In this document: positions 4,461 through 12,571 of the stretch, one piece after another | Numbering within the stretch: the first letter of the stretch is position 1 | How the letters are laid out: every line of letters starts with the position of its first letter | NCBI GenBank assembly: GCA_026710565.1 | Contig: JAPOQV010000436.1 | Span: 1 to 14,219 of the forward strand | DNA: 14,219 nucleotides | Reading direction: 5' to 3' | Source: Spirochaetaceae bacterium | GTDB lineage: Bacteria; Spirochaetota; Spirochaetia; SZUA-6; Bin103 | Translations under genes and position numbers: made by a program | The notes under the pieces: model-generated | Database searches by the model: none | Told to the model about the DNA's origin: nothing | What the model saw: only the letters and a program-made list of their open reading frames with translations

Positions 4461-4859
4461 TCATCCGGCGGCGGGAAGTACGTCGATGTCGACACAGTCG
4501 CACAGTTCGCGGTCGGCGGTGACCAGCGTCAGACCGAATACCATGGCGCTGGCGGCGATGAAGCGGTCGGCCGGATCCTGATTCTGCAGCCGCACTGCAC
4601 GGCTGGCCGTCGCCACGTCGATCGTGACGGGAGCTTCCCGCAGGGGAGGATCGGCCAGCGCGTCCCGCACCCAGCTCCGGGCGTCGGGCTCCAGCATCAA
4701 CCGCCCGCGCTCGCTCAGGATCAGAACCTCCCAGACGCTGATGGAGCAAAGCCACAGCTCGTTCGAGGGATCCTCCAGGGCTCGCCGCACCGGCTCCGCC
4801 AGCCGCGAGACGTCCGCCACGCTCCACACCCAGATGTGCGTGTCGAGCAGCAACTTCAT
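4461..4859 (-). CDS. vapC: PIN-domain toxin ribonuclease, VapC-like (first TA module)
   Basis: A 132-residue PIN-domain protein, the toxin half of a type II toxin-antitoxin pair; such toxins cleave RNA (often tRNA or rRNA) using Mg2+. The acidic active-site residues are visible: Asp6 (LLLDTHIW), Glu44 (SVWEV), Asp95 and Asp98 (QDPADRFIAA) and Asp116 (TADREL). The LDTHxxxW start and DPADRFIAA are typical of PIN toxins paired with Phd/YefM antitoxins. The ATG overlaps the antitoxin stop by four bases (ATGA), so translation is coupled. The PIG-L gene follows in the same direction after 16 bases. All catalytic residues are present, so the toxin looks active. Confidence 0.93.
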   Translation of the reverse strand: MKLLLDTHIWVWSVADVSRLAEPVRRALEDPSNELWLCSISVWEVLILSERGRLMLEPDARSWVRDALADPPLREAPVTIDVATASRAVRLQNQDPADRFIAASAMVFGLTLVTADRELCDCVDIDVLPAAG

Positions 4860-5101
4860 TCCTGTCGCAGGACTTCCCAGTCCGACGGATCGGATGCCGG
4901 AGCGACGATGTCACCCACGATTCTGGTGCGGTCCCGCAGGCAGCCCAGCCACCCTTCGTCCCGCGCAGCGGGCGGCGGCGGAACGATCTGGGCCACCGGC
5001 TTGCCGAACCGCGTCACCAGGACCGGCACCCGCGTCTTGCCCACGCGGTCCAGAACCGCCAGACAGGTCGCCTTGAACGTCGATATCTGAATCTCTTCCA
5101 T
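4856..5101 (-). CDS. Phd/YefM-family antitoxin (first TA module)
   Basis: An 81-residue antitoxin. Its N-terminal half (ISTFKATCLAVLDRV, then PVLVTRFGKPVAQIVPP) is the Phd/YefM DNA-binding fold; the acidic, Trp-containing C-terminus (about residues 48-81) would wrap the toxin. Such antitoxins neutralise the partner PIN toxin and repress their own promoter. The ATG at 5101 is the only start before an in-frame stop. An AAGGAG abuts the ATG with no spacing, so it is poorly placed as a Shine-Dalgarno sequence; the promoter position instead suggests a leaderless mRNA. A repeated operator-like element lies just upstream. The toxin gene follows with a four-base overlap. Confidence 0.92.
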   Translation of the reverse strand: MEEIQISTFKATCLAVLDRVGKTRVPVLVTRFGKPVAQIVPPPPAARDEGWLGCLRDRTRIVGDIVAPASDPSDWEVLRQE

Positions 5102-5109
5102 CTCCTTGG

Positions 5110-5138
5110 TTCATACCATGGTCAAAGATCATGGTCAA
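5110..5138 (-). promoter_or_regulatory. Sigma70-type promoter of the first TA operon
   Basis: Read on the minus strand, TTGACC (5138-5133) is followed by a 17-bp spacer and TATGAA (5115-5110). The expected transcription start, 6-8 bases past the -10, falls at 5104-5101, on or next to the A of the antitoxin ATG at 5101. The spacer is filled by the operator-like element. Confidence 0.6.
5116..5136 (-). promoter_or_regulatory. Operator-like element of the first TA operon (direct repeats)
   Basis: Two copies of GACCATG (minus strand) start 13 bp apart; the longer match on the plus strand is CATGGTCAAA at 5117-5126 and 5130-5139. It fills the spacer between -35 and -10. The 21 bp match 18 of 21 positions of 11908-11928, at the start of the second TA module. 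It is a plausible binding site for the Phd/YefM antitoxin; binding is inferred. Confidence 0.55.
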
Positions 5139-5168
5139 AATACCAGCCGACAAAACAGGCTTGCACGA

Positions 5169-5186
5169 CTCGGCCATTTTGCCGAG
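5169..5186. other. Small inverted repeat upstream of the BMP gene
   Basis: CTCGGC and GCCGAG flank a six-base loop (CATTTT). It lies in the 144-bp divergent gap between the TA operon and the BMP importer operon, about 60 bp before the importer start. It could be an operator or a leader hairpin. I found no convincing promoter for the importer in this gap beyond a weak TTGCAC at 5161. Confidence 0.3.
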
Positions 5187-5245
5187 CATGTCGGAGACCG
5201 GCGCGGCGCATGCGTCCGCGCACCCCCCGATACGGAGGCATTACC

Positions 5246-6232
5246 GTGCGACGAATTCTCTGTGCGGCGGCGATCGGCTTGTTGTGTGCCGGCGCCGCCA
5301 TGGCCGACATCAACCCGGCCGTCGTCTACGACGTCGGCAGCAAGTTCGACAAGTCGTTCAACGAGGGCGTCTACAACGGCGCCGAGCGGTTCAAGGAGGA
5401 GACCGGCGTCGCCTACGCCGAGTTCCAGATCACCAACGAGGCGCAGCGCGAGCAGGCGTTCCGGAACTTCGCGCGCCGCGGCTACAGTCCGATCATCGCC
5501 GTGGGCTTCAGCCAGGCGCCGGCCGTGGAGGCGGTGGCCGCCGAGTACCCGGACACCAGCTTCGCCATCATCGACATGGTCGTGGACCTGCCCAATGTCC
5601 AGTCCATCGTGTTCAAGGAGCACGAGGGCTCGTTCCTGGTGGGCATGATCGCCGCCATGGCGTCCGAGACCGGCACGGTGGGCTTCGTGGGCGGCATGGC
5701 CACCCCGCTGACCCGCCGGTTCGCCTGCGGCTACGTGCACGGGGTCCAGTACGTCAATCCGGACGCCGAGATCTACCAGAACATGGCCGGCACCACGCCG
5801 GCGGCGTGGAGCGATCCGGTAAAGGGCGCGGAGCTTGCCAAGTCGCAGTTCGACCGCGGCGCGGACGTGGTGTTCGCGGCGGCCGGCGCCACCGGGCTGG
5901 GCGTGCTGCAGGCCGCCGCAGACGGCGGCAAGCTGTCGATCGGGGTGGACTCCAACCAGAACTATCTGCACCCGGGGTCGGTGCTGACCTCGATGCTCAA
6001 GCGGGTCGACGTCGCGGCCTACGATGTCTTCAAGACCGCTCTGGACGGCACCTGGGAGCCGGGCTTCAGGAACCTGGGGCTGGCCGAGGACGGCGTCGGC
6101 TGGGCGCTGGACGAGCACAACCAGGCCTTGATCAGCGACGAGATGGCAGCGCAGGTGGAGGCCGCGGGCGCCGCCATCGTCGCCGGGGAGATGGAGATCC
6201 ACGACTACATGGCGACCAACTCCTGCCCCTGA
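5246..6232 (+). CDS. BMP family ABC transporter substrate-binding protein
   Basis: A 328-residue periplasmic receptor of the basic membrane protein (BMP/PnrA) family, which binds purine nucleosides or related molecules for import. The start is GTG 5246, behind GGAGG at 5234-5238 with seven bases between; this gives a clean Sec signal (residues 1-20, cut after AMA, mature DINPAVVYD). There is no convincing lipobox, so it should be soluble rather than a lipoprotein. Family landmarks are GSKFDKSFNEG at 31-41, ITNEAQREQAFRNF, AVGFSQA, FAIIDMVVDLPNV, SIVFKEHEGSFLVG, GFVGGM, SQFDRGADVVFAAAG, GVDSNQNYLHPG and LTSMLKRVDVA. The length and the NSCP C-terminus are like proteobacterial homologues. It is the first gene of a complete importer operon; the stop overlaps the presumed ATPase start. 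Confidence 0.95.
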   Translation: MRRILCAAAIGLLCAGAAMADINPAVVYDVGSKFDKSFNEGVYNGAERFKEETGVAYAEFQITNEAQREQAFRNFARRGYSPIIAVGFSQAPAVEAVAAEYPDTSFAIIDMVVDLPNVQSIVFKEHEGSFLVGMIAAMASETGTVGFVGGMATPLTRRFACGYVHGVQYVNPDAEIYQNMAGTTPAAWSDPVKGAELAKSQFDRGADVVFAAAGATGLGVLQAAADGGKLSIGVDSNQNYLHPGSVLTSMLKRVDVAAYDVFKTALDGTWEPGFRNLGLAEDGVGWALDEHNQALISDEMAAQVEAAGAAIVAGEMEIHDYMATNSCP

Positions 6233-7767
6233 CGGAGCGGCCTCCCCCCGCTATCGCGCTGCGGGGGATCAACAAGCGCTTCGGCGCCGTGCAAGCCAAC
6301 CGCGACGTGTCGCTGCAGGTCGCGGCCGGGTCCATTCACGGCATCGTCGGCGAGAACGGCGCCGGCAAGTCGACCCTGATGAGCATCCTCTACGGGTTCT
6401 ACCGGGCCGACTCCGGCACGATCGAGGTGGCCGGACGGCCGGCCGCCATCGGCAGGCCCCGCGACGCGATCGCCGCCGGCATCGGCATGGTCCACCAGCA
6501 CTTCATGCTGGTGGAGCCCCTGACGGTGCTGGAGAACGTCCTGCTGGGTGCCGAGGGCGCGGCGCTCCTGCAGCGCGGCCTGCGCCGCGCGCGCGACACG
6601 CTGACCCACCTGGCGCGGGAGTACGGGCTGGAGGGGGAGGGCGATGCCCCGGTCGGAGACCTGCCGGTCGGCATCCAGCAGCGGGTGGAGATCCTCAAGG
6701 CGCTGTACCGCGGCGCCGAGACCCTGATCCTGGACGAGCCGACCGGGGTGCTCACGCCGCAGGAGGCCGACGAGCTGTTCCGGATCCTGGCCGCGCTCAG
6801 GGAGCAGGGACGGACCATGATCCTGATCACCCACAAGCTGCGCGAGATCATGGCCGCCACCGACCGCGTGACCGTGATGCGCGCCGGCGAGGTGGTGGCT
6901 CACGTCGATACCGCGGAGACCTCGCAGGAGCACCTGGCCGAGCTGATGGTGGGGCGCGCGGTGCTGTTGCGGGTGGAGAAGAGCCCCGCCACGCCCGGCG
7001 AGGTGATGCTTGCGGCCGACCACCTGGACTACACCGATGCCGCCGGCGTGCGCCGCGTGCGGGACGTGAGCCTGAGCGTGCGGCGCGGCGAGATCGTCGG
7101 CATCGCCGGCGTGGCCGGCAACGGCCAGTCGGAGCTGATGGCGCTGCTGGCCGGGATCGAGCGGCCCGAGGCCGGCACGGTGACCGTCAGCGGACGCATG
7201 ATGTCCGACGGACGTGAGGCAGGCGACGCGCGCCGCATGCGCCACGCCGGCCTGGGCCACGTGCCGGAGGACCGCCAGCGCACTGGGCTGGTGGCCACCT
7301 TCGCGGCCAACGAGTCCTCGATCCTGGGCTACCACGACGACCGCGCCTACAACGGCGCCATCCTCATGCACCGGCGGGAGATCATCGCATCTTCCCGGCG
7401 GCAGATGAACGAGTTCGACGTGCGCCCGCCCGATCCGCTGCTGCGCTCGGACGCGTTCTCCGGCGGCAACCAGCAGAAGCTCATCGTCGCGCGCGAGCTC
7501 GACCGCGATCCCGACGTACTGCTGATCGGGCAGCCCACCCGCGGGCTCGACATCGGCGCGATCGAGTTCATCCACCGGCGCCTGGTCCTGCTGCGTGACC
7601 GGGGCATGGCGATCCTGCTGGTGTCGGTCGAGCTGGACGAGATCATCGCGCTGAGCGACCGGGTGCTGGTGATGTTCGACGGCGCCGTCGCCGGCGAGGT
7701 GTCCGGGACGGACGCGACCGAGCAGACCATCGGTCCGCTGATGGCCGGGATCGGCGCGGCGGCCTGA
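6229..7767 (+). CDS. BMP-importer ATPase with two nucleotide-binding domains
   Basis: About 512 residues: two fused ABC domains, as in nucleoside/simple-sugar importers (YufO/NupO, RbsA-like). Domain 1 has Walker A GENGAGKST at 41-49, Q-loop region MVHQHFMLV, a signature LPVGIQQR at 145-152 and Walker B LILDEP with Asp169 and Glu170. Domain 2 has a degenerate P-loop (GVAGNGQSEL, no GKS), signature FSGGNQQK at 410-417 and IGQPTRGLD at 433-441, where the catalytic Glu is Gln. So domain 1 hydrolyses ATP and domain 2 is probably structural, which is usual in this family. No ATG, GTG or TTG lies near the expected N-terminus. The best start is CTG 6229, whose last two bases belong to the receptor's TGA (CTGA, a four-base overlap like the common ATGA). 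GTG 6288 would remove the first strand. Confidence 0.9.
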   Translation: MTERPPPAIALRGINKRFGAVQANRDVSLQVAAGSIHGIVGENGAGKSTLMSILYGFYRADSGTIEVAGRPAAIGRPRDAIAAGIGMVHQHFMLVEPLTVLENVLLGAEGAALLQRGLRRARDTLTHLAREYGLEGEGDAPVGDLPVGIQQRVEILKALYRGAETLILDEPTGVLTPQEADELFRILAALREQGRTMILITHKLREIMAATDRVTVMRAGEVVAHVDTAETSQEHLAELMVGRAVLLRVEKSPATPGEVMLAADHLDYTDAAGVRRVRDVSLSVRRGEIVGIAGVAGNGQSELMALLAGIERPEAGTVTVSGRMMSDGREAGDARRMRHAGLGHVPEDRQRTGLVATFAANESSILGYHDDRAYNGAILMHRREIIASSRRQMNEFDVRPPDPLLRSDAFSGGNQQKLIVARELDRDPDVLLIGQPTRGLDIGAIEFIHRRLVLLRDRGMAILLVSVELDEIIALSDRVLVMFDGAVAGEVSGTDATEQTIGPLMAGIGAAA

Positions 7768-7780
7768 GGTGGCCGTCACC

Positions 7781-7832
7781 CGTGGCTGACTCACGTGGCT
7801 GACTCACGTGGCTGACTCACGTGGCTGACTGA
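7781..7832 (+). repeat. Tandem repeat, 4 x 13 bp
   Basis: Three exact copies of CGTGGCTGACTCA (from 7781, 7794 and 7807) and a fourth with one change (CGTGGCTGACTGA, 7820-7832) sit between the ATPase stop (7767) and the permease ATG (7834). Bases 7768-7780 resemble a decayed fifth copy (8 of 13). Each unit holds the 7-bp palindrome TGACTCA, and each junction forms CACGTG. Stop codons occur in all three frames, so it is not translated as a repeat peptide. No Shine-Dalgarno sequence precedes the permease. Confidence 0.9.
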
Positions 7833-7833
7833 C

Positions 7834-8946
7834 ATGGCCGCCCTGCCGGAAGGCGGCCTGCCGCGCTGGGCCGCCAACGGCGTGCTGCCGCTGGTCAATC
7901 TGCTGGCGGCGTTCGTGGTGGCCGGCATCGTCATCCTGATCATCGGCGAGAGCCCGATCGAGGCGCTGACGGTCCTGATCCGCGGGGCGTTCGGGTTCCG
8001 CGAGGCTTGGGGCTACACCCTGTACTACGCCACCAACTTCATCTTCACCGCGCTGGCCGTGTCGGTTGCCCTGCACTGCGGCCTGTTCAACATCGGCGGC
8101 GAGGGCCAGGGATACCTCGGCGGCCTGGGCGTGGGGCTGGTGTGCCTGTTCCTGGACTGGCTGCCGCTGGTGGTCCTGCTGCCGCTTGCGGTCGCGGCCG
8201 GCGCCCTGTTCGGGGCGGTGTGGGCGTGGGTGCCGGGCTACCTGCAGGCGCGGCGCGGCTCGCACATCGTCATCACCACCATCATGTTCAATTTCCTGGC
8301 CGCCACGCTGATGGTCTACCTGCTGGTGAACGTGCTCATCGACCCCGGTCAGATGTCGCCGCAGAGCCGGGCGTTCGCCGAGCACGTCCGGCTGCCGGCG
8401 ATGCACGAAGTGCTCGGCCGGCTTGGCATCGACTTCCCGCGCACGCCGCTCAACATGGCGTTTCCGTGGGCGCTCGTGTGCGGGGTGCTGGTGTGGATCT
8501 TCATCTGGCATACGCGCTGGGGCTACGAGCTGCGCACCGTCGGCGCCAACACCGACGCCGCCGTCTACGCCGGCATCTCCCCGTCACGCAACATCATCCG
8601 CGCCATGGCGATCTCCGGCGCGCTGGCCGGGATGATGGGGCTGAACGAGGTCATGGGGGTCAGCCACCGGCTGCTGCTCAACTTCACCGCCGGCTACGGG
8701 TTCGTGGGCATCGCGGTCTCGCTGATGGGCCGCAACCACCCGCTCGGCATCGTCGTCGCCAGCCTGCTGTTCGGCGCGCTGTACCAGGGCGGCGCCGAGC
8801 TGGCGTTCGAGATGCCGAAGGTGAGCCGCGAGCTGGTGGTGGTGATCCAGGGCCTGGTGATCCTGTTCGTGGGCGCGCTGGAGTATCTGTTCCGCCCCGT
8901 GCTGCTGCCCTGGCTGCGCGGCCGCCGTCGGGCCGCGGCAGAGTAG
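7834..8946 (+). CDS. ABC transporter permease, BMP/nucleoside importer (first)
   Basis: A 370-residue inner-membrane permease of the BPD_transp_2/LivHM-like family found in BMP-type importers (YufP/NupP-like). Hydrophobic segments appear near residues 18-38, 62-82, 95-130, 145-170, 208-226, 255-275, 288-318 and 335-355, i.e. about 8-10 helices. The diagnostic FNIGGEGQ motif is at 85-92, and the coupling segment follows as ELRTVGANTDAAVYAGI (about 232-248). The C-terminus is an Arg-rich cytoplasmic tail. ATG 7834 is the first usable start after a stop at 7813; it has no Shine-Dalgarno sequence and directly follows the 13-bp tandem repeat. It forms the channel with the second permease, which begins 13 bases after its stop. 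Confidence 0.93.
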   Translation: MAALPEGGLPRWAANGVLPLVNLLAAFVVAGIVILIIGESPIEALTVLIRGAFGFREAWGYTLYYATNFIFTALAVSVALHCGLFNIGGEGQGYLGGLGVGLVCLFLDWLPLVVLLPLAVAAGALFGAVWAWVPGYLQARRGSHIVITTIMFNFLAATLMVYLLVNVLIDPGQMSPQSRAFAEHVRLPAMHEVLGRLGIDFPRTPLNMAFPWALVCGVLVWIFIWHTRWGYELRTVGANTDAAVYAGISPSRNIIRAMAISGALAGMMGLNEVMGVSHRLLLNFTAGYGFVGIAVSLMGRNHPLGIVVASLLFGALYQGGAELAFEMPKVSRELVVVIQGLVILFVGALEYLFRPVLLPWLRGRRRAAAE

Positions 8947-8959
8947 GGAGGCGGAGCCG

Positions 8960-9997
8960 GTGGAGGCGTTCGGGTTCTTCGTCCTGCTGCTGGACGCCAC
9001 CCTGCGGGTGTCGGTTCCGCTGGTGCTGGCGTCGCTGGCGGGGCTGTTCTCGGAGCGATCCGGGATCGTCGACATCGGCCTGGAGGGCAAGATGCTCGGC
9101 GGCGCGTTCGGGGCCGCCGCCGCGTCGTTCGTGTCCTCGGAGCTGCTTGCGGCGGCGGGGCTGACGGCCCTGCTGCCGGCGGCGGCGTGGATCGGGTTGG
9201 CGGCCGGCATCGCCTGCGCGGTGCTGCTGGCGCTGCTGCACGGCGTGGCCTGCATCCGCTTCCACGGCAACCAGATCGTCTCCGGCGTGGCGATCAACAT
9301 CCTCGTCTCCGGCCTCACCGTGCTGCTGGCGATCGCCTGGTTCGGCCAGGGAGGACGGACCCCGCAACTCCCGCCGGAGGGGAGGTTCCGGCCGCTGACG
9401 TGGCCGGGCGCCGAGGCGGTGCAGGAGGTGCCGGTCATCGGCCACCTGTACGGAGAGCTGCTGTCCGGCCACAACGTGCTGGTGTACGCGGCGCTTCTGA
9501 CCGTGCCGGCCGCGTTCTGGGTGATCTACCGGACCCGTTTCGGGCTGCGTCTGCGCGCCGTGGGCGAGAACCCGGAAGCGGTGGACACCGCCGGCATCTC
9601 CGTGGCCGCGATCCGCTACCGCGCCGTGCTGCTGTGCGGGGCGCTGTGCGGCGCGGCCGGCGCCTACCTTGCCACCGCGCAGTCCGCGGCGTTCATCCGC
9701 GACATGACCGCTGGCAAGGGGTTCATCGCCCTGGCGGCGCTGATCTTCGGCAAGTGGCGCCCGGGCCGGACGCTGGTGGCCTGCCTGCTGTTCGGGTTCC
9801 TGGAGGCCCTGGCCGCCCGGCTGCAGGGCGCCTTCGACCTGCAGGGCACCGCCGGCGCGCTGCGGGCGCTGGTGGGGGCGGCGCCGTTCGTGATCGAGGC
9901 GCTGCCCTACGCCCTGGTCGTGCTCCTGCTGGCCGGCTTCGTCGGCCGCGCGGTGGCGCCGAGGGCGAGCGGCATCCCCTACCTCAAGTCGGGCTGA
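8960..9997 (+). CDS. ABC transporter permease, BMP/nucleoside importer (second)
   Basis: A 345-residue partner permease (YufQ/NupQ-like) of the same family. The family motif VDIGLEGKML is at 37-46. Helices run through about 7-30, 45-90, 100-125, 170-185, 215-240, 250-275 and 300-330, with the coupling segment LRAVGENPEAVDTAGIS in the middle. Translation starts at GTG 8960 behind GGGAGG at 8946-8951, eight bases upstream. It closes the receptor-ATPase-permease-permease operon. The gene ends at 9997 without an obvious hairpin; the next gene has its own promoter. Confidence 0.93.
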   Translation: MEAFGFFVLLLDATLRVSVPLVLASLAGLFSERSGIVDIGLEGKMLGGAFGAAAASFVSSELLAAAGLTALLPAAAWIGLAAGIACAVLLALLHGVACIRFHGNQIVSGVAINILVSGLTVLLAIAWFGQGGRTPQLPPEGRFRPLTWPGAEAVQEVPVIGHLYGELLSGHNVLVYAALLTVPAAFWVIYRTRFGLRLRAVGENPEAVDTAGISVAAIRYRAVLLCGALCGAAGAYLATAQSAAFIRDMTAGKGFIALAALIFGKWRPGRTLVACLLFGFLEALAARLQGAFDLQGTAGALRALVGAAPFVIEALPYALVVLLLAGFVGRAVAPRASGIPYLKSG

Positions 9998-10018
9998 TCC
10001 CGGAACCGGCGTGCTGAT

Positions 10019-10047
10019 TTGACGCAACATCAGCGGCCACACATACT
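10019..10047 (+). promoter_or_regulatory. Sigma70-type promoter of the Cache-like/AmrB operon
   Basis: TTGACG (10019-10024), a 17-bp spacer and CATACT (10042-10047). The expected start of transcription is 10053-10056, directly before ATG 10057, so the message would have almost no leader. No Shine-Dalgarno sequence precedes this ATG, in line with leaderless translation. It separates this operon from the importer genes upstream. Confidence 0.55.
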
Positions 10048-10056
10048 TCCGGCGCC

Positions 10057-10539
10057 ATGAAGAGACTGTTGACCGTACTCTGCGCCGGTTTGTGTCTGCT
10101 GGCGAGCGGAGTGGTTGTGGCAGACGAGGCCGAGACGCTGGATGCGATCTCCCATCACATGGTCGCGCAGGCCATGCTGGCCGCCCACTTCATCGACGCC
10201 GCGCTGCAGGCGGGCATGGACGCGGAGCAGATCAACGCCGTGCTCACCGACATCGCCGACAACACGGTGATCACCGAGTTCTGGATCACCGACGAGACCG
10301 GTCAGATCGCGTTCACGAGCATCCCCGGCACCGGCTTCGCGTTCCCGACCGACCCCGACGCCGGCACACAGGCGGCTCCGTTCGCGGTGCTCCTCACAGG
10401 CGACGAGAAGGTGGTGATCCAGGACGCGCAGCCGCGCGAGCTCGATGCGGCGATCTTCAAGTACGTCGGCGTGGCGGGCATCGACCAGCCGCGGATTGTG
10501 CAGGTCGGCGTGTCCGCCGCCGAGCTGGAGAGCGATTGA
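10057..10539 (+). CDS. Small secreted Cache-like sensory-domain protein
   Basis: A 160-residue exported protein: Sec signal peptide at 1-22 (MKRLL start, cut near VVA before DEAET), then a helix (about 25-65) and a beta-rich part with ITDETGQIAFTS, FAFPTDPDAG and FKYVGVAGIDQPRIVQVGV. The ITDExG-x-I and FKYVGV...IVQVGV patterns resemble the extracytoplasmic Cache/PAS-like domains of chemoreceptors and histidine kinases. Here the domain stands alone, with no transmembrane anchor, HAMP or output domain. It might bind a small ligand in the periplasm and serve a partner protein; this is inference. The AmrB-like gene follows after 18 bases and may be co-transcribed. I do not recognise a named family. 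Confidence 0.75.
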   Translation: MKRLLTVLCAGLCLLASGVVVADEAETLDAISHHMVAQAMLAAHFIDAALQAGMDAEQINAVLTDIADNTVITEFWITDETGQIAFTSIPGTGFAFPTDPDAGTQAAPFAVLLTGDEKVVIQDAQPRELDAAIFKYVGVAGIDQPRIVQVGVSAAELESD

Positions 10540-10557
10540 GCAGCACGTAGCCCACGC

Positions 10558-11880
10558 GTGCGCTACACCATCGACCCGCCGCTGCCGCGGGTCCGTCACG
10601 TCGACGTGATCCCCGTCGATCACGACGGCTCCCGCGCATTCTACGTGCGTGACCCGCTGGAGTTCGCCCCGCAGCCCATCGTGCTCGGCGCCGCGGGGCT
10701 GATGATCCTGTCCTGCCTGGACGGCAGGCACACCATGGGACAGGTTCGCCAGGTGCTTCGGGAGCGGCTCCCCGGCGCCGACATCGACGTGGCGGAGATC
10801 CACCGGCTGCTGCGCACGCTCAGCCGCGGCTGCTTCCTGCACGACCGGGTTTCGGCCGAGCGCATCGCCCAGGTGTCGGAGGAGTTCGCCCGCGCCACGG
10901 TGCGGCCCGCCTGGCACGCCGGCCGGTCGTACCCCGACGACGCCGGTGAGCTGGCCGCGATGTTCGACCGCTTCTTCGTCGAGGCCAAGACGGCGATCCC
11001 CAGGGCGGTGGAGCCCGCGGCCGTCCCGGCAGCGGGCTCCACCGCACCATGCCTGGCGGCCGTGATGTGCCCGCACATCGACCTGCGGGCGGGCGGCGCG
11101 ATCTACCCGCCGGCCTTCGCGGCGCTGGCCGCCGCGGCGCGCGATCCCGATCCCATCGAGCTCTACGTCATCCTGGGCGTTGCCCACCACGCCGGCGCGG
11201 AACCGGGCGCCGGCTTCGCGATCGCGACCGACAAGGACTACGCGACGCCGTTCGGCCGGGCGCCGACCGGGCGCAGCGTGATCGAGGAGTGGTCGCGCCG
11301 CGCCGGCCGCGACGTCACCGACCGGCAGACCCTGCACCGCACCGAGCACTCGGTGGAGTTCCCGCTGCTGTTCCTGCACTACATCGAGGCGCGCGCCGGC
11401 CTGCCGCCCTACGAGGTGGGGCCGGTGCTGCTCGGCAGCGTCGACCCCTACCTGCGCGACGGCTCCGACCCGCTTCAGGCCGCGGAGGTCGCAGGCGAGC
11501 TGCAGGCGCTGCGCGAGGGGGTGGCCGCCAGCGGCAAGCGCGCGCTCTACGTGCTCAGCGTGGACTTGGCGCACATCGGCCCCAAGTTCGGCGATCCCGC
11601 GCCGGTCGACGACGCCGGCGCCGCCTCCTGCGAGCAGGCCGACCGCGCCCTGCTGGACTACGCGCAACGGTTCGACTCGGCCGGCTTGACGCGCTCGCTT
11701 GCCGCCTGCGGCAACAACCGCAACGTGGACGCCGTCTCCGGCCTGTACTCCCTGTACCCGCTGCTGGGCGGCGGCGATCGCCACGGCACCCTGCTCGCCT
11801 ACGGCCAGAACCGCCAGCCCGACACCGGCTCGCTGGTCAGCTACGCCAGCATGGCCTTCTACCAGTCTACGGTCGATTGA
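10558..11880 (+). CDS. amrB: AmmeMemoRadiSam system protein B (MEMO1 family), long form
   Basis: A 440-residue MEMO1-family protein. Residues about 130-440 form the Memo fold, related to class III extradiol dioxygenases. The conserved positions are present: His173 (CPHIDL), His210/211 (GVAHH), TEHSVEFPLLF with His264, SVDLAHIG with Asp336 and His339, and Cys384 (ACGNN). Human MEMO1 uses the equivalents of the first two His and the Cys for metal binding. Residues 1-115 are an extra domain whose helical part (DGRHTMGQVRQVLRERL, then LLRTLSRGCFLHD) resembles a PqqD-like winged helix. GTG 10558 is the first start after the preceding gene's in-frame stop; there is no clear Shine-Dalgarno sequence. 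The usual partners, an AMMECR1 protein and a radical SAM protein, are not next to it. The bacterial function is not established. Confidence 0.88.
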   Translation: MRYTIDPPLPRVRHVDVIPVDHDGSRAFYVRDPLEFAPQPIVLGAAGLMILSCLDGRHTMGQVRQVLRERLPGADIDVAEIHRLLRTLSRGCFLHDRVSAERIAQVSEEFARATVRPAWHAGRSYPDDAGELAAMFDRFFVEAKTAIPRAVEPAAVPAAGSTAPCLAAVMCPHIDLRAGGAIYPPAFAALAAAARDPDPIELYVILGVAHHAGAEPGAGFAIATDKDYATPFGRAPTGRSVIEEWSRRAGRDVTDRQTLHRTEHSVEFPLLFLHYIEARAGLPPYEVGPVLLGSVDPYLRDGSDPLQAAEVAGELQALREGVAASGKRALYVLSVDLAHIGPKFGDPAPVDDAGAASCEQADRALLDYAQRFDSAGLTRSLAACGNNRNVDAVSGLYSLYPLLGGGDRHGTLLAYGQNRQPDTGSLVSYASMAFYQSTVD

Positions 11881-11890
11881 CGGTCGATTG
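11869..11890 (+). repeat. 11-bp tandem duplication at the end of amrB
   Basis: ACGGTCGATTG occurs twice in tandem (11869-11879 and 11880-11890). The first copy contains the last amrB codons and most of its stop; the second extends to supply the TTGACC that serves as -35 of the TA promoter. The period equals about one helical turn. Confidence 0.8.
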
Positions 11891-11916
11891 ACCTCTCTCC
11901 GTATTGCGTCCATGAT
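11888..11916 (+). promoter_or_regulatory. Sigma70-type promoter of the second TA operon
   Basis: TTGACC (11888-11893), a 17-bp spacer and CATGAT (11911-11916). The expected transcription start is 11922-11925, so ATG 11925 would be at the 5' end of the message, while ATG 11919 would be too close to the -10 to be transcribed. Confidence 0.5.
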
Positions 11917-11928
11917 CTATGTCCATGG
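11908..11928 (+). promoter_or_regulatory. Operator-like element of the second TA operon
   Basis: Two GTCCATG copies begin 13 bp apart (11908 and 11921); the second is part of the perfect palindrome GTCCATGGAC (11921-11930). It covers the -10 and the start codon. It matches 18 of 21 positions of the element at the first TA promoter (5136-5116, minus strand); the three differences are all A/T swaps. Probably the antitoxin's own binding site (inferred). Confidence 0.55.
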
Positions 11929-12188
11929 ACGAAACAGCCGATACGGTTCCAGCGGGCGAATTCAAGCAGAAGTGCCTGGCGCTGATCGACCGGGTCGCCG
12001 CTACCGGCACCCCGATCATCATCAGCAAGTACGGCACCCCGGTCGCTCGCCTGACACCTCTGGAGAGTCCCCGCGACAGGGAGGAGCGCATCCTCGAAGA
12101 TCTCCGCTCCGGCTCGGGAGGGATGCTGGTCGATGAACAGACGTTCCTGGCGCCTACCTCGGAGATCGCCGGCTGGGCCGACTCGTGA
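11925..12188 (+). CDS. Phd/YefM-family antitoxin (second TA module)
   Basis: An 87-residue antitoxin. VPAGEFKQKCLALIDRVAATG and PIIISKYGTPVARLTPLE form the Phd/YefM DNA-binding domain (about residues 7-48); the acidic C-terminus (EERILEDLRSG through SEIAGWADS) is the toxin-binding tail. ATG 11925 is preferred because the promoter would start the transcript there; an in-frame ATG two codons earlier (11919) would give 89 residues and is a common alternative call. There is no Shine-Dalgarno sequence. It resembles the first-module antitoxin in layout (FKxxCLAxxDRV) but is clearly divergent, so the pair is not a recent duplication. The toxin start overlaps the stop by four bases. Confidence 0.9.
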   Translation: MDETADTVPAGEFKQKCLALIDRVAATGTPIIISKYGTPVARLTPLESPRDREERILEDLRSGSGGMLVDEQTFLAPTSEIAGWADS

Positions 12189-12571
12189 TAGCCCTCGACA
12201 CCCACGCAGCGGTGTGGTGGAGCCAGGCGCCGGAGCACCTCAGCCCCAACGCCGTCGAGATCATCCACGGTGCCGACCGCCTCCTCATCCCATCCATCGT
12301 GTTCTGGGAAGTCGCACTCCTGGTCCGCAAGGGACGGCTCAGACTGAAGCGGAACCAAGCGGTGGCTTGGTGGGCGGAGACCCTGTTATCGATCCCGCGG
12401 GTCGAGGAGGTCCCGCTCACCCATCAGCTCGCCATCGCCGCCGACGCCTCCGACATGCATCCGGACCCAGCCGACCGGTTCATCGCCGCCACCGCTCACC
12501 ACTACCACGCACCGCTGGTGACCAAGGACCACCTGCTGCGGGACATCGACTGGCTAGCGACCGTCTGGTAA
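12185..12571 (+). CDS. vapC: PIN-domain toxin ribonuclease, VapC-like (second TA module)
   Basis: A 128-residue PIN-domain toxin starting at GTG 12185, which overlaps the antitoxin stop (GTGA). Active-site acids are Asp5 (ALDTHAAVWW), Glu42 (VFWEV), Asp94 and Asp97 (HPDPADRFIAA) and Asp115 (TKDHLL). All are present, so an active Mg2+-dependent ribonuclease is expected. It belongs to the same PIN subgroup as the toxin at 4461-4859 (LDTH start, DPADRFIAA core) but differs widely elsewhere. It ends six bases before the stop of the convergent permease gene. Confidence 0.93.
   Translation: MIALDTHAAVWWSQAPEHLSPNAVEIIHGADRLLIPSIVFWEVALLVRKGRLRLKRNQAVAWWAETLLSIPRVEEVPLTHQLAIAADASDMHPDPADRFIAATAHHYHAPLVTKDHLLRDIDWLATVW

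Follow-up and report, generated by a model that had tools for sequence, protein, structure and literature searches.

Two 21-bp elements lie at the promoters of two separate toxin-antitoxin operons in the window (the whole stretch of 14,219 nucleotides that we analysed), and they are very likely to be real operators, of an ordinary kind. The reading that we favour, with a probability of about 0.78, is that each element serves as operator in the autoregulation of the Phd/YefM-VapC operon next to it, that the two are alike because their antitoxins come from one family and not because they are jointly controlled, and that each antitoxin probably prefers its own site.

Operon A occupies positions 5101-4461 on the minus strand and operon B positions 11919-12571 on the plus strand, and in both of them the toxin gene lies directly 3' of the antitoxin gene and overlaps it (at 4856-4859 and 12185-12188). 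Antitoxin A (81 aa; 4856..5101, minus strand) and antitoxin B (89 aa, with an alternative start at ATG 11925; 11919..12188, plus strand) both scored above the curated cut-off of 29.8 bits for the Phd/YefM family PF02604 (32.7 and 34.3 bits, respectively). The VapC-like toxins A (132 aa; 4461..4859, minus strand; E 3.2e-16) and B (128 aa; 12185..12571, plus strand; E 7.2e-17) are PIN domain proteins that matched PF01850 at 60.5 and 62.5 bits, against a cut-off of 23.6. The strand-helix-strand-strand order predicted for antitoxin A (E2-5, H6-23, E27-31, E34-39) fits the Phd/YefM DNA-binding fold, and near the start of the long helix stand the residues F9-K10-A11-T12-C13 in A and F-K-Q-K-C in B; searches for structural homologues from the single sequence gave nothing useful. 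The antitoxins have diverged, as the original prediction held, with 26 of 74 aligned residues identical (35%), and the toxins have 44 identical residues of 117 aligned. Elsewhere in the window, positions 10558-11880 encode AmmeMemoRadiSam system protein B, whose named relatives include Spirochaetaceae and Gemmatimonadota (two) MAGs, and at 7775-7833, between ABC ATPase and permease genes, a 13-bp unit (CTGACTCACGTGG) is repeated in tandem about four times.

The elements read GACCATGATCTTTGACCATGG (minus strand, 5136-5116), just upstream of the antitoxin A gene, and GTCCATGATCTATGTCCATGG (plus strand, 11908-11928), spanning the start codon of the antitoxin B gene. The match of 18 of 21 bases that had been described for them proved exact on re-reading, all three mismatches being A/T exchanges, and the rest of that description was also seen in the DNA: both loci have two half-sites 13 bp apart with an ATCT spacer between them, and the second half-site belongs to a full palindrome. 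The palindrome around the first half-site is imperfect. The full palindrome is ACCATGGT (5115-5122) in putative operator A (5116..5136, minus strand; two TGACCAT half-sites), which matches the site of locus L015 at 21/21, and GTCCATGGAC (11921-11930) in putative operator B (11908..11928, plus strand; two GTCCATG half-sites). GTATT is common to both loci as well, outside the half-sites. In register, A has GACCATG and B has GTCCATG in both direct copies of the half-site, and a change is also seen in the main palindrome, on its right arm (ACCATGGT versus GTCCATGGAC). Of the four half-sites of B, three (both left ones and that right arm) thus have the A-to-T exchange, always at one and the same half-site position, whereas A and B do not differ in the fourth arm (GATC).

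We give almost no credence to chance, or to letters that promoters share, as the explanation for the 18 of 21 identities, although the identity alone is not significant window-wide, because 226 overlapping pairs of 21-mers in the window have at least 18 identities, mostly in GC-rich coding DNA and one tandem repeat. What counts is that both copies stand at phd promoters. When the upstream regions of A and B were dinucleotide-shuffled 200 times, their best 21-mer match had 11-15 identities and never the observed 18, and a degenerate pattern shared by the elements matched just these two places in the window at three mismatches or fewer, and none in 200 shuffles. A point on the side of chance came from the exact 20-mer pattern GNCCATGATCTNTGNCCATG, which was present on 23 contigs among about 85,000 species genomes, one of them at a phd gene (L015) and 22 with no phd gene at the site, close to the number that we estimated ourselves for random sequence (about 30). 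When A or T was demanded at the three free positions, three of the 23 contigs were left, one at phd. In viral contigs there were three matches to the motif, none at a phd gene. Equal frequency at unrelated sites had been named beforehand as a result that would speak against the motif, and the exact element, with one of 23 contigs at phd, did not withstand it. Since the contig count was near chance and a single contig in 23 was at phd, the 21-mer taken as a whole lacks specificity. The specific part is the half-site together with its layout, and it is location and conservation, not raw identity, that make the case for these sites.

Upstream of related antitoxin genes, the half-sites are found much more often than chance would give. 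We read the 100 nt of upstream DNA, on either strand, of antitoxin relatives from the phyla of the L015 Acidobacteria MAG and of a Spirochaeta MAG, among the matches listed; this first set came to 44 loci after 6 of 50 were dropped as copies, and near-copies remained. The motif TGACYAT (tandem TGACCAT or TGACTAT) was picked by eye on the same loci on which it was then counted, and it occurred at least once in 34 of the 44 and at least twice in 21, among the matches listed. The corresponding figures were 3.5% and 0.09% of 4400 shuffles, and 1.9% and 0 of 3786 random windows from the same loci. Successive forward half-sites in this set were spaced by 13 bp (9 cases), 14 bp (5) or 12 bp (4). Because the motif had been chosen on the first-set loci, the count was repeated on new loci, taken from the phyla to which an Obscuribacterales MAG and a Syntrophaceae MAG belong, where the motif was present in 14 of 16 loci and at least twice in 10. 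Over all FKxxC-type loci from several phyla, with near-copies removed more strictly and A and B of the window excluded, at least one TGACYAT was found in 54 of 83 loci and at least two in 37, compared with 134 and 1 of 4150 shuffles; the other 29 of the 83 had no TGACYAT. The operator function that had been proposed for the two elements is well supported by this conservation before relatives.

To place the likeness of A and B against the family background, we compared 64 FKxxC-type loci, A and B included (30 of 94 rows were dropped: 20 not FKxxC, 9 duplicates and 1 second gene). Within this pool, operator A matched 10 loci in other genomes at 18 or more of 21 bases, one of them at 21/21, and operator B was at 18/21 to A and to L027. 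Of the pairs whose antitoxins have less than 45% amino acid identity, 13 of 1301 reached 18/21, which puts A-B at the high end, not alone. The L015 site, directly before a phd gene in an Acidobacteria MAG, equals operator A in all 21 bases, and the antitoxin of that locus shares 63% identity with antitoxin A; L015 and L027 are one locus, and under the latter name operator A matches it over 25 bp without mismatch, longer than its match to B. Operator A is therefore nearer to the site of its Acidobacteria relative than to that of its neighbour B. In a tree of 102 antitoxins, a rough one with few columns and unsettled bootstrap, A grouped with look-alikes from other phyla in a set of 25 rows (99/95), apart from B, which fell in a set of 11 (98/90); the group named Q11 in this tree consists of B and all 12 proteins from the search with B, assigned regardless of each one's residue 11. 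Relatives of B and A were sought in 296 and 392 genomes, respectively, of the Spirochaeta MAG's phylum, and none was close, the best identities being 46% and 42% among the matches listed. A search with B through 299 genomes from the phylum of the Cellvibrionales MAG found none, and neither did searches with A or B in viral contigs and plasmids.

Duplication of the promoter region, or gene conversion between the two operons, would account for the sharing of GTATT and ATCT outside the half-sites. It is a highly improbable explanation, as the antitoxins are 35% identical and sit in separate tree groups, and operator A equals the L027 site over more bases than it shares with B; the earlier statement that the match does not simply stem from recent duplication agrees with these separate, supported groups. 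Instead, the likeness of the sites is what the antitoxin family predicts, and shared control is unnecessary to explain it. Nor does one have to suppose that joint control preserves the likeness, given that an element of the same kind stands before relatives in unrelated genomes.

In our preferred reading, with each element the operator of its own operon, an antitoxin dimer would sit on each of two adjacent palindromes, which are separated by about one turn of DNA, and the toxin would be a likely co-repressor that tightens the complex, as in yefM-yoeB. Lying next to each other across the promoter, the dimers would silence the operon that encodes them. For B, a promoter scan placed a possible promoter at 11888..11916 on the plus strand (TTGACC, 17 bp, CATGAT; 9 of 12 consensus positions), which agrees with the earlier placement of this element over the -10 box and start codon. 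Nothing at A passed the threshold of the scan, and the possible promoter that we read by eye (5110..5138, minus strand) consists of TTGACC (5138-5133, inside the first half-site), 17 bp and TATGAA (5115-5110). At A the first half-site would form the -35 box, with the -10 box following the second half-site. The pattern TTGACY-N16..18-TAnnnT was common to related loci (13 of 64, versus 7 of 3200 shuffles), and A itself is outside the 13. At B the antitoxin mRNA may be leaderless, since the site would cover the -10 box and start codon, and transcription from promoter B (window 11888-11930) may start at or beside ATG 11925, which lies within the operator. Members of the B family whose sequence begins with MD are consistent with this start. 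Database entries of the A family (P0010, P0011, P0017 and others) often start about 10 residues early, with MVNDHG- or MVSDHG-like peptides that look like operator DNA translated in frame.

Antitoxins A and B belong to the FKxxC branch of Phd/YefM, in which the TGACYAT half-site and the 12-14 bp layout appear to be old and widespread. The recurrence of one exchange at one half-site position looks like a change of specificity, and the A-to-T change in B most likely matches its altered DNA-reading residues (K-Q-K for K-A-T), which is why each antitoxin probably prefers its own site. K10 and R31 of antitoxin A we take to be the counterparts of R10 and R31 of E. coli YefM, from an alignment made by eye against the YefM sequence. 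Residue 11 was compared with base 3 of TGNCYAT in 85 loci (38 of 123 rows were dropped: 20 not FKxxC, 17 duplicates and 1 second gene). Ala-11 went with base A in 49 of 63 loci, the other 14 having no motif; four Ala-11 loci had mixed bases, that is, an extra half-site with another base. Base A also went with Ser-11 (3 of 4) and Val-11 (2 of 2), and Asp-11 went with base G in all four of its loci, a rule first suggested by L099 and afterwards obeyed by three of three new loci. All four Asp-11 loci form one clade in the tree, so the pairing of Asp with G counts as one evolutionary event. Gln-11 went with base T in its single locus, which is B itself. The nine Glu-11 loci were misfits (seven without the motif, one with base A and one with base T), and one Arg-10 locus and one Asn-10 locus had no motif. 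Among 120 proteins from the search with A, the residue motif was readable in 119, of which 114 had FKATC; among the 53 proteins P0121-P0173 it was readable by pattern in 40, of which 33 had FKQKC.

Residue 11 and base 3 are thus paired for Ala and Asp. A tentative extension, which we hold to be possible and somewhat doubtful, is that in the FKxxC branch base 3 of TG[A/G/T]CYAT is determined by one residue beside the key basic one, namely Ala, Asp or Gln at position 11, and that the two operons of the window are a natural pair that diverged by one residue-base change and so avoid mutual repression. The separate idea that Gln-11 alone lies behind T at base 3 in TGTACA sites as well fails, because L070 has Ala-11 and Arg-10 with TGTACA. 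Upstream of Glu-11 and some Ala-11 antitoxins (L139, L140, L142, L145, L126, L129 and L141), ACTGGTCAT-like palindromes, tandem or single, replace TGACCATGGTCA.

The nearest known systems are E. coli yefM-yoeB and enterococcal axe-txe, which according to the available portions of two papers (PMC4803016, PMC7730913) have the same antitoxin family and the same operator layout at the promoter, the antitoxin repressing and the toxin helping. The available text on E. coli yefM describes two palindromes, one long and one short, 12 bp apart centre to centre and overlapping the promoter, and a requirement of YefM R10 and R31 for DNA binding (PMC4803016). Both loci of the window show this layout, a pair of palindromes in tandem at the promoter with roughly 12 bp between them, the half-site spacing being 13 bp here and 12-14 bp in relatives. 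Unlike those systems, as far as the same portions describe them, the core is TGWCCAT (TGACCAT in A and TGTCCAT in B) and not TGTACA, and the toxin is a PIN protein rather than YoeB or Txe. No published TGACCAT operator for Phd/YefM came up among the open-licence papers listed. In phage P1 phd-doc (Phd-operator structures PDB 4zm0 and 4zm2) the partner toxin is Doc, and M. tuberculosis VapB46 (PDB 6jqy) showed 26% identity. Three genomes have 10, 9 and 19 Phd/YefM genes, of which at most 30 loci were read. By eye, their subfamilies share much the same arrangement of two palindromes but differ in the core, for instance GACTTAGT, CTTAGCTA, ATCTAG or TGTACA, and certain cores accompany the same subfamily again in a further genome; TGTACA is the core in loci such as L070, L077 and L078. 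The tandem-palindrome test is a loose one that 324 of 2250 random windows pass.

These systems also provide the precedent for cross-regulation, in which one or both antitoxins would repress both operons and couple the two toxin-antitoxin systems. YefM-YoeB and Axe-Txe are described, in the text available of PMC7730913, as binding cognate and non-cognate operators about equally well, and direct cross-regulation of this sort is listed in the accessible part of a review (PMC10305079). The 18/21 identity, the equal spacing and the shared ATCT spacer in the window would fit such coupling. We nevertheless think it unlikely. The core hexamer in the published YefM/Axe case is identical, going by that same text (PMC7730913), whereas the cores of A and B differ, and they do so in concert at one half-site position, with the changed residue beside K10. 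Moreover, the likeness is explained without cross-regulation, as site A is closer to that of a relative from another phylum than to B.

Operation of each site on its own operon, by an antitoxin that probably prefers it, is thus the reading that we retain. When toxin-antitoxin operators within a genome resemble each other, shared control does not have to follow, as operators track the antitoxin subfamily across phyla. The pairing of residue and base would offer a compact rule for which related antitoxins should cross-repress, relevant wherever genomes hold many Phd/YefM loci.
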